46,792 nucleotides of DNA from a bacterium. Lineage in GTDB: Bacteria > Patescibacteriota > Gracilibacteria > UBA1369 > PNNO01. Position numbers and translations under genes: made by a program. The stretch is from the NCBI GenBank assembly GCA_021158225.1, contig JAGGUZ010000010.1, positions 1 through 46,792 on the forward strand, in the 5' to 3' direction. This document shows, piece after piece, positions 2,639 through 5,452 of this stretch. Within the stretch, counting starts at the first letter, position 1, and every line of letters starts with the position of its first letter. The notes below the pieces were generated by a model. It was not told where the DNA came from. It did not search any database and saw nothing but the letters and a program-made list of their open reading frames with translations.

Positions 2639-2728
2639 TGGCGGAGAGACTGGGATTCGAACCCAGGAGGCCCGTGAAGGCCTAACGGTTTTCAAGACCG
2701 CCGCTTTCGACCACTCAGCCATCTCTCC
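2639..2728 (-). tRNA. tRNA-Ser(TGA), CCA encoded
   Basis: Acceptor GGAGAGA, anticodon loop CTTGAAA (TGA), long variable arm, GGTTCGAATCC T-loop, 3' GCCA. Confidence 0.92.
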
Positions 2729-2791: not shown

Positions 2792-5452
2792 TTACATTCT
2801 TTCCGGCACATCAATACCAAGAATCACAAGCCCCTCTTTTAAAACCTCAGCCGAAGCTTTAACCAAATTAAGACGAACAAGCCTTACTTGTTTGCTATCC
2901 GCCTGCAATACGGAAACCGAATTATAAAAACTGTTAAATTGCTGAGCCACATCATATAAATAATTCGACAACAAATTCGGTTTATATTCTTCCGTAGCCA
3001 AAACCAAATATTCTTGAAACTTTACCAATAAACGAGCTACAGCAAGTTCAAGAGGATGTTCAAGTGGCTTAAAGTTATCTTCGTAACCCTCAACTCTATC
3101 TAGCGCCTCAAAAATATCAATTTGCTTGTTTTCTTCCTCTTTGTCTTCCTGTTTATTTTTAGGCGTTGGCTTTTTACCAGCACGAGTCATCTCATTATAT
3201 TTATTCAAAATACTTTGCGCACGAGCAACCGTATATTGAAGATACGGCGCACTATTTCCTTCAATACTAAGCATTTTATCCCAATCAAAAGTAATATCGG
3301 TAGTTCTGTTTTGCGAAAGAATATTGTATTTAATGGCCCCAATCGCCACTTTTCTTGCCACTTCCTCTCGCTCCTTTTTCTTAAGATTCTTACTTTTTTC
3401 CTCTACAATTTTCCGAGCTCGCTCAAATGCCTCATTTAAAACATCTTCCAAAAGAACCACATTCCCTTTTCTGGTACTCATGGATCTGTCCGGCAAGTGC
3501 ATTCTACCAAAAGATACATGTACCATCTTTACCTCATCAAATCCCATTAATTTCGCAGTCTCAAACAGCTGATTAAAATGAAGACTCTGTGCAGTATCCA
3601 CCACATAAATAAGTTGCGAAGGTTGCCATCTTTTAATCCTGTATTCCAGACTTGTTAAATCGCGCGTTGAATAAAGAGTCGATCCATCGGATTTTCGGAT
3701 CATATAAGGAGGGTATTTTTCGTCTTTAAATTCAACAATTAACGCCCCTCCTTCTCCTTCTTTAAATATTCCTTTTTGGATACCTTCATCTATAACAGCT
3801 TGCATTTTATCTTTAAAGAAACTTTCACCGATATATTCATCAAAATGAACTCCGAGTTTTTCATATGTTTTCTCAAGATTTTTGCGACTCATGTTGTTAA
3901 ACCATTTCCAAAGTTCAATATTTTCCAAATTCCCTTCCTCAAGTTTTTTAAACTCCTCCCTCCCTTTTTCTTCTATTGATTTATCTTGCTCCGCTCCTTC
4001 ATGAAATTTAACATAAAGCTTTAAAAGTTCCTGAATCGGATTTTTCTCAACAGCTTTTTTACTCCCCCAAGTTTTATAAGCGTAAATTAATTTTCCGAAT
4101 TGAGTACCCCAATCCCCAAGATAGTTTATTCCAACAGATTTAAACCCTATATGTTTGTAAATATTATAAAGAGATTGTCCTATAATTGTTGAAAGCAAAT
4201 GATGAACTCCAAGCGGTTTTGCCGTATTCGGCGACGAGTAATCAAAAACAACCGCCCTGTTTTGACCAAGTGTGTTGTCGTACATTTGCATACCTTCGGC
4301 AAGATCTTTTATTTTACTTTCAAGCCAACTACGTGCGACTTTTATATTTATAAAGCCCGGAAGAGCCACAGATAAAGAATCTATAAATTGAATAGGCTGA
4401 ACATTTTGAATAATTTTTTCGGCAATCGTCGAAGGATTTTTGAGTAGTCGTTTACTTAATTTCATCGCGATACTACATGCATAATCACCATTTTCCGCAT
4501 CTTTTGGATATTCAACTTTTAAATCAGACGCATCGGCTTCCGGATATGCCTTCCCCAAAGCCTCTTTTAACAAGACTGTTAACCTTGCTTTTAAAGAATT
4601 TGTGTCTAATTCAAACGAACTATCCGGAACCGATGGCACAATTTTAGCTGGAGAATTATTTAAAATTTTATCCTCCTTATCTTCACTTGAGCCTAATTCT
4701 TTTTTAGAATCCTCCTCTTTTTTAACAGAAGTAACTTCCTCTACGGGTTCCTTTTCCGCCTTTTCTTCTTCATAATCAGCCGGATTATACTCCGAAAGAC
4801 CAATAACATTTAAATCTTTCTCTTTACGAGGAAATTTTAAAATATCTTCCTCAAATTCGCCTCCGGAACAATAACGCTGAATCATAATGGCCATTTCGTG
4901 CATTTTAACACTTAAATCGTCATCTTCTAAAATCCCCATATTTTCTATAATACAAACTATATTTTGAGTATTTTTATTGACCGATCCTCTGGGAAATTGC
5001 TCACTGTTCCATTTTTTTGTAAGAGTACTTCCACCATCGCGATAAAAAATATTATTTTTCTCAATATCAAGATGGATATCCTCATAAATATCATCCAAAC
5101 TAAAACAAATAATCGGGATTTGCCACTTAAGCATAAAGTAATCACGAATTCTGCTTATATTATCACGAAATGGAATATCTTTATTCTTTAAAGCCTTATA
5201 AAGGATATCTTCCATTGAAGTTTTAAAAGTTTTTGCACTTATTTCTTCAAAAACTTTACGCCAATTCGAAATTTTCGGCATATCATTCGGATCGATATCT
5301 TTAAATTTCTTTTTAATCTGAACACTTAAACCGCTATATATTTGTGTAAGCGCACTGCTTCTTTTTGAGTTGTCTATACGTTTTGCAACAATAATCCCAA
5401 AAGAAAGCGATGGATATCTCTCACTGATTGTCTCATTTACAATAAATTTCAT
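2792..5452 (-). CDS. argS: Arginyl-tRNA synthetase with N-terminal fused B3/4 (PheRS-beta editing-like) domain
   Basis: C-terminal ~600 aa is ArgRS (YSSPNTAKPLGVHHLLSTIIGQSL, NYLGDWGTQFGKLI, MSTRKGNVV, C-terminal LGIDVPERM). N-terminal ~220 aa resembles solo B3/4 proteins (YPSLSFGIIVAKRIDNS, KISNWRKVFEEI, WNSEQFPRGSVNKNTQNIVCIIENMGI). Confidence 0.93.
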   Translation of the reverse strand: MKFIVNETISERYPSLSFGIIVAKRIDNSKRSSALTQIYSGLSVQIKKKFKDIDPNDMPKISNWRKVFEEISAKTFKTSMEDILYKALKNKDIPFRDNISRIRDYFMLKWQIPIICFSLDDIYEDIHLDIEKNNIFYRDGGSTLTKKWNSEQFPRGSVNKNTQNIVCIIENMGILEDDDLSVKMHEMAIMIQRYCSGGEFEEDILKFPRKEKDLNVIGLSEYNPADYEEEKAEKEPVEEVTSVKKEEDSKKELGSSEDKEDKILNNSPAKIVPSVPDSSFELDTNSLKARLTVLLKEALGKAYPEADASDLKVEYPKDAENGDYACSIAMKLSKRLLKNPSTIAEKIIQNVQPIQFIDSLSVALPGFINIKVARSWLESKIKDLAEGMQMYDNTLGQNRAVVFDYSSPNTAKPLGVHHLLSTIIGQSLYNIYKHIGFKSVGINYLGDWGTQFGKLIYAYKTWGSKKAVEKNPIQELLKLYVKFHEGAEQDKSIEEKGREEFKKLEEGNLENIELWKWFNNMSRKNLEKTYEKLGVHFDEYIGESFFKDKMQAVIDEGIQKGIFKEGEGGALIVEFKDEKYPPYMIRKSDGSTLYSTRDLTSLEYRIKRWQPSQLIYVVDTAQSLHFNQLFETAKLMGFDEVKMVHVSFGRMHLPDRSMSTRKGNVVLLEDVLNEAFERARKIVEEKSKNLKKKEREEVARKVAIGAIKYNILSQNRTTDITFDWDKMLSIEGNSAPYLQYTVARAQSILNKYNEMTRAGKKPTPKNKQEDKEEENKQIDIFEALDRVEGYEDNFKPLEHPLELAVARLLVKFQEYLVLATEEYKPNLLSNYLYDVAQQFNSFYNSVSVLQADSKQVRLVRLNLVKASAEVLKEGLVILGIDVPERM

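Follow-up and report, generated by a model that had tools for sequence, protein, structure and literature searches.

A CtdA-like B3/4 domain fused to arginyl-tRNA synthetase in Patescibacteria and its probable remodelling in one family

Introduction

Why should the only arginyl-tRNA synthetase (ArgRS) of a bacterium with a very small genome begin with a domain that resembles an editing module? To our knowledge, ArgRS is listed among the synthetases without an editing domain, and B3/4 editing domains are absent from the known forms of ArgRS, LysRS (classes I and II), TyrRS, TrpRS and MetRS. The gene in question lies in a contig of 46,792 nucleotides (JAGGUZ010000010.1; the window) from a 990-kb, 99.4%-complete genome of the Peregrinibacteria type, where it is the sole argS. 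An earlier note, made from the sequence of the window, had described it as a fusion of ArgRS with a B3/4 domain akin to that of PheRS beta, possibly a new quality-control system. In this study, we analyzed the identity, conservation, distribution and phylogeny of this domain.

Organization of the fusion gene

The single uninterrupted open reading frame of 886 aa at 2792-5452 was confirmed. It lies on the minus strand, which had not been given before, begins with ATG and ends with a stop codon at 2792-2794. Its features are as follows.

2792..5452, minus strand: B3/4-ArgRS fusion gene, 886 aa, only argS of the genome
4778..5452, minus strand: N-terminal CtdA-like B3/4 domain, aa 1-225 (profile against CtdA, E=4e-22; AF2/Foldseek, TM 0.75)
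5060..5065, minus strand: point after aa 130 where alignments place a missing loop of ~18 aa, which in CtdA-like proteins holds a conserved G-x-E-x-F
4943..5056, minus strand: pocket-side segment, aa 133-170 (...FYRDGGSTLTKKWNSEQFPRGS...), with canonical residues replaced
4595..4777, minus strand: fast-evolving acidic linker of low complexity, aa 226-286 (relatives share 18-33% identity)
2795..4594, minus strand: complete ArgRS body, aa 287-886, with the N-terminal domain, a class I catalytic domain containing MSTRKGN, and the DALR anticodon-binding domain

The acidic linker and the complete ArgRS were thus both recovered as first described. Pfam and NCBIfam searches located Arg_tRNA_synt_N at 291-371, tRNA-synt_1d at 387-724 and DALR at 790-886, together with an argS equivalog match (E=2e-136); all three ArgRS domains scored above the cut-offs (TIGR00456/PF00750). 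A tRNA-Ser gene (TGA, window positions 2642-2728) lies directly downstream of argS, with a second one (GGA, 2013-2101) further on, and tRNA-Ser (TGA) is also found next to argS in L015, L022, L024 and L194.

Identity of the N-terminal domain

The N-terminus of the window protein gave a sub-threshold match to PF03483 (E=0.05), and the orthologous N-terminal domains of sister families matched the same model at up to E=6e-26. When the window domain alone was compared with the PDB by phmmer, no match was obtained and a family profile was needed. The profile built from 25 family sequences retrieved CtdA (9f7e and 9mkl) with E=4e-22, whereas PheRS-beta reached E=0.2. The structural check proposed earlier gave the same order: with the AF2 model of the window domain (pLDDT 89.5), Foldseek placed CtdA first (TM 0.75-0.78, E about 1e-12), whereas the B3/4 regions of PheRS showed a TM of about 0.5. 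The model of L008, a relative with an intact domain (pLDDT 94.7), superposed on CtdA with TM 0.75-0.86 at 28% identity. The domain is thus, by profile and predicted structure, a CtdA-like B3/4 fold, because CtdA came first in the family profile search and in Foldseek searches with both models. The resemblance to solo B3/4 proteins (COG3382-like) noticed at the outset was therefore borne out, but PheRS beta had to give way to CtdA as the nearest relative, and a PheRS-beta origin was rejected on the same figures (E 4e-22 vs 0.2; TM 0.75 vs about 0.5). The B5 and FDX-ACB context of a PheRS-beta chain was not found around the window domain, and a separate pheT-type B3/4 protein is encoded elsewhere in the same genome.

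Conserved residues and selection

We scored each copy at 30 positions whose conservation reaches 80% or more in a set of 17 solo/CtdA proteins, which makes them conserved rather than proven catalytic residues. Most solo proteins retained 27-30 of them (17-22 in a few divergent solos) and CtdA 24-25. The ArgRS-linked copies differed widely: L008 retained 28 and L015, L018 and L021 retained 23-24 (L015, 24), so that the conserved set is present in L008 and L015; other ArgRS-linked copies of families f13 and f14 retained 13-20, those of family f2 only 5-6, and those of the window's own family (f1) 9-11. The window copy itself, with 9, has lost 21 of the 30, including N106 and E137, invariant (100%) in the solo/CtdA set. 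E137 is gone together with its loop, as the 18-aa G-x-E-x-F loop is absent from the whole family; the WN pair and the residue equivalent to D159 are kept. Since most of the conserved residues are lost, the window protein appears a poor candidate for an active editor, unlike L008 (genome G010) and L015 (G019), and catalysis by the present copy is doubtful.

Loss of residues was accompanied by constraint on the domain. Within the window's family, dN/dS was about 0.10-0.15 in the domain and 0.4-0.6 in the linker, with synonymous sites near saturation in several pairs, and identity was 58-72% in the N-terminal domain vs 70-83% in the catalytic domain. In f14 and f13, constraint on the N-terminal domain was about equal to that on the ArgRS body or stronger (again with near-saturated synonymous sites in several pairs); between L015 and L018, dN/dS was 0.018 for the B3/4 domain vs 0.049 for the ArgRS body. 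Invariant positions of the window's family were concentrated in that half of the domain which bears the pocket (33/74 vs 37/151 in the remainder, p=0.003, with borders set by eye), and few parts of the domain are as well conserved in this family as the pocket-side segment at aa 133-170. Because purifying selection is combined with invariant residues massed in the pocket-bearing half, the domain looks remodelled rather than simply decayed.

Such remodelling could in principle have left an active deacylase of canavanyl- or analogue-tRNAArg with a reshaped pocket. The kept fold, the purifying selection, the re-conserved pocket-side segment and the retention of the WN pair and of a residue equivalent to D159 would all suit an enzyme of this kind, but the loss of 21 of 30 conserved residues, N106, E137 and its loop among them, makes it rather unlikely. 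Given the altered pocket, the window copy most likely no longer performs the standard CtdA chemistry. The earlier proposal of cis-editing of mischarged tRNAArg thus survives as a general idea, but not with the window copy, which has 9 of the 30 residues, as an active editor.

Distribution in the order

The same fusion was present in all seven genomes of the window's family (G000-G006), in one of which (G003) it has an internal stop and in another (G004) it is split across two contigs, and it was found in other families of the order as well. In a scan of 89 genomes of the order, an N-terminal domain of the ArgRS-linked clade was matched in about 54 of the 59 genomes of f1, f2, f5, f13 and f14 (manual row count), the ArgRS linkage of rows other than those inspected individually being read from open-frame lengths consistent with it (about 750-1000 aa, against about 260-300 aa for a separate gene). 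Part of f14 (G037, G044, G049 and G387) instead encodes the domain in an ORF of its own immediately upstream of argS, and these ORFs nest inside the fused clade in the tree. Two f14 genomes have an additional solo B3/4 gene elsewhere beside the ArgRS-linked copy (L226:107-820 and L227:675-1382). A scan of named genomes, which was built on a full-length alignment with ArgRS patterns and returns mostly unfused ArgRS, yielded two loci with the domain among 80: a fusion in Ca. Peregrinibacteria GW2011_GWF2_38_29 (L085) and an argS-adjacent copy in Ca. Peribacteria Ike-200m-53 (L086).

Because the fusion occurs in all seven family genomes and also in numerous further genomes of the order, it is neither a chance event nor an assembly chimera, a concern raised at the start. 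A chimera or a neutral remnant might have been suspected from the sub-threshold Pfam match and the lost residues, but its probability is close to nil in view of independent assemblies carrying the same fusion across the whole family and beyond, and of a dN/dS of about 0.1 in the domain vs 0.4-0.6 in the linker.

Fusions to other synthetases

Searching 380 Patescibacteria genomes with a broad CtdA-like profile, we obtained 43 strong matches other than PheRS, which were classified by Pfam/NCBIfam and ORF context; matches worse than about 1e-12 were put aside as mostly PheRS-beta, an assignment confirmed for L054 and, for the others, based on ORF length and on where the match lay. Twenty-six of the 43 were fusions, 4 lay directly upstream of argS, 10 were solos and 3 were cut by contig ends. 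Ten of the fusions were to ArgRS, for which a survey had been suggested earlier, and the others were to five further synthetase types, if the two LysRS classes are counted apart: class II LysRS (6), class I LysRS (4), TyrRS (4), TrpRS (1) and MetRS (1). The window's order adds TyrRS and class I LysRS fusions. By comparison, none of 27 matches in 200 Bacillota genomes was fused, all lying in ORFs no longer than 313 aa (Fisher p=1e-8 for the excess in Patescibacteria, with argS-adjacent copies counted as unfused), and the only match in 96 genomes of Kiritimatiellota, the phylum of G477, was in an ORF of 285 aa. Overall, the sampling for such fusions covered Patescibacteria, these two phyla and 35 hand-picked genomes.

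Several architectures were more elaborate. A class II LysRS of 1119 aa is followed by HD, B3/4 and DUF2000 domains (L201:2091-5447); other LysRS proteins combine tRNA_bind and B3/4 (L200:3802-6543) or B3/4 and a weak HD match (L067:1441-4293). One TrpRS has N-terminal B3/4 and YbaK-type tRNA_edit domains together (L078:2666-4924), and one genome encodes both a MetRS with a C-terminal B3/4 (L079:3246-5681) and a TyrRS fusion (L072:4339-6285). At L199:1-4192, a solo B3/4 gene is followed on the same strand by an ORF of 577 aa, whose sole matches were weak ones to helix-turn-helix domains, and then by ArgRS.

An alternative is that the domain was never an editor in these proteins and has always been a tRNA-binding appendage that raises tRNA affinity in small-genome cells, like PheRS B2 or tRNA_bind. 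For CPR bacteria, TyrRS and LysRS with a fused B2 OB-fold have been published (PMC5370408), the LysRS of G344 bears tRNA_bind and B3/4 together, and f1 and f2 retain the domain without its pocket residues. Yet the complete solo/CtdA residue set persists in the intact families, where constraint is very strong, and it is not obvious that binding by itself would call for this; the TrpRS of G113, too, combines B3/4 with a second editing-type domain (YbaK/tRNA_edit). We consider a purely binding origin improbable.

Phylogeny of the fused domains

In a careful tree that excluded the long-branch domains of TrpRS and MetRS, the ArgRS-linked domains of the order formed one clade (UFBoot 100/SH-aLRT 98). 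A second ArgRS fusion (L069 and L070, families f35 and f36) grouped with true CtdA and a cyanobacterial solo protein (98/95), and the ArgRS tree also kept the two fusions apart. A single clade of all ArgRS-linked domains was weakly rejected (AU p=0.037), and the Arg, Arg-B and CtdA branches joined weakly (80/80). The ArgRS fusion thus appears, from these trees, to have two origins in Patescibacteria. TyrRS-linked domains formed a clade (97/91), as did the domains linked to class I and class II LysRS (100/99), with the exception of L062, a separate fusion of the solo type (100/100). A single Lys-linked clade including L062 was rejected (p=0.014), whereas a single clade of class I LysRS-linked domains was not (p=0.46).

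In general, the B3/4 domains grouped by the amino acid of their synthetase, and class I and class II LysRS share a clade although they are unrelated. This grouping could also mirror tRNA binding without hydrolysis. In G223 and G295, two of the genomes with the second ArgRS fusion, three tRNA-Arg genes (TCG, GCG and TCT) lie directly upstream of the B3/4-ArgRS fusion on the same strand (L069:4201-4509 and L198:4173-4508). It had also been suggested that ArgRS merely carries the domain for trans-editing of another tRNA. Relaxed aminoacyl specificity is possible in editing domains (PMC11415595), but the grouping by amino acid, the two independent ArgRS fusions, the separate copies adjacent to argS and the tRNA-Arg cluster upstream in f35 make this very unlikely.

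Proposed function

The explanation that we favor, and regard as fairly probable, is that an intact ancestral CtdA-type cis-editor on the sole ArgRS was remodelled in the window's family and now serves as a tRNAArg binder or as an editor whose specificity has changed. In this view, several families of the order share an ancestor that would have had an intact aminoacyl-tRNAArg deacylase tethered to ArgRS by a flexible linker. If the ArgRS active site loaded a tRNAArg with canavanine or some other analogue of arginine, the 3' end of this tRNA could move over to the B3/4 pocket for hydrolysis ahead of release. Canavanine is a plant compound, and the natural substrate in these bacteria may differ. 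In the window's family, the 18-aa loop would then have been lost and most conserved pocket residues replaced, with the fold still under purifying selection, which may have left a tRNAArg-binding module or an editor with altered specificity.

The architecture, the homology to CtdA, the orthology, the loss of residues and the selection are results of the analysis; deacylation by the intact relatives, the substrate involved and the role that the domain now has in this organism are what we infer from them. Judged by homology, by position and by the grouping of the domains by amino acid, the intact fusions are most probably ArgRSs that edit in cis; for the window protein, a modified role, either tRNAArg binding or altered editing, is expected. 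More broadly, a free-standing CtdA-like deacylase may have been converted repeatedly into a cis-editing module, twice for ArgRS and also for both LysRS classes, TyrRS, TrpRS and MetRS, with a specificity that tracks the amino acid or tRNA rather than the synthetase fold and with the window's ArgRS module rebuilt for a new use; we see this wider picture as plausible and evenly balanced.

If an editing-type domain arose twice within ArgRS, the genomes themselves would indicate that proofreading of tRNAArg is important far outside the soil bacteria exposed to canavanine, also in cells that have genomes of about 1 Mb and are probably amino-acid scavengers. The occurrence of a single clade of the domain on LysRS of both classes is a natural experiment tying the appended domain to tRNA or amino-acid identity, not to the synthetase.

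Comparison with known systems

CtdA hydrolyses canavanyl-tRNAArg in vitro and in vivo and spares Arg-tRNAArg (Hauth 2023, PMC10018355), and its loss leads to canavanine incorporation (PMC10018355). Editing of tRNAArg by B3/4 proteins is therefore not new, since the nearest relative of our domain is a published tRNAArg editor, and the claim of an undescribed quality-control system must be narrowed to the cis fusion: we found no description of B3/4 fused to ArgRS or LysRS in the open-licence literature (PMC), and no tRNAArg editor other than CtdA there. CtdA (PDB 9f7e and 9mkl) shares the B3/4 fold with the window domain and is its closest relative by both profile and structure; nearly all of its conserved residues are present in intact relatives of the window protein, whereas the window copy is without most of them. 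CtdA and the solo B3/4 proteins stand alone, CtdA acting on tRNAArg, whereas the window domain is fused to ArgRS. Known CtdA genes are frequently, but not universally, near canavanine-degradation genes or under guanidine riboswitches; no Rfam riboswitch, guanidine riboswitches included, was found at the gathering threshold in the window and nine related loci.

Mukai et al. (2017, PMC5370408) described B2 fused to TyrRS and LysRS of CPR bacteria, a case of a PheRS-beta-type domain appended to synthetases in the same radiation, but B2 is an OB-fold tRNA-binding domain, unlike the B3/4 editing fold, and ArgRS was not reported there. The B3/4 region of PheRS beta has the same superfamily fold as the window domain (TM about 0.5) but is a much weaker match, and the window domain is without the B5/FDX-ACB context. 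Finally, the INS/YbaK-type editing fold occurs both as a cis domain of ProRS and as standalone ProXp proteins. The INS family is named in PMC10018355 and PMC11415595. It provides a precedent for one editing fold that is used both free and fused, with another fold and another tRNA.
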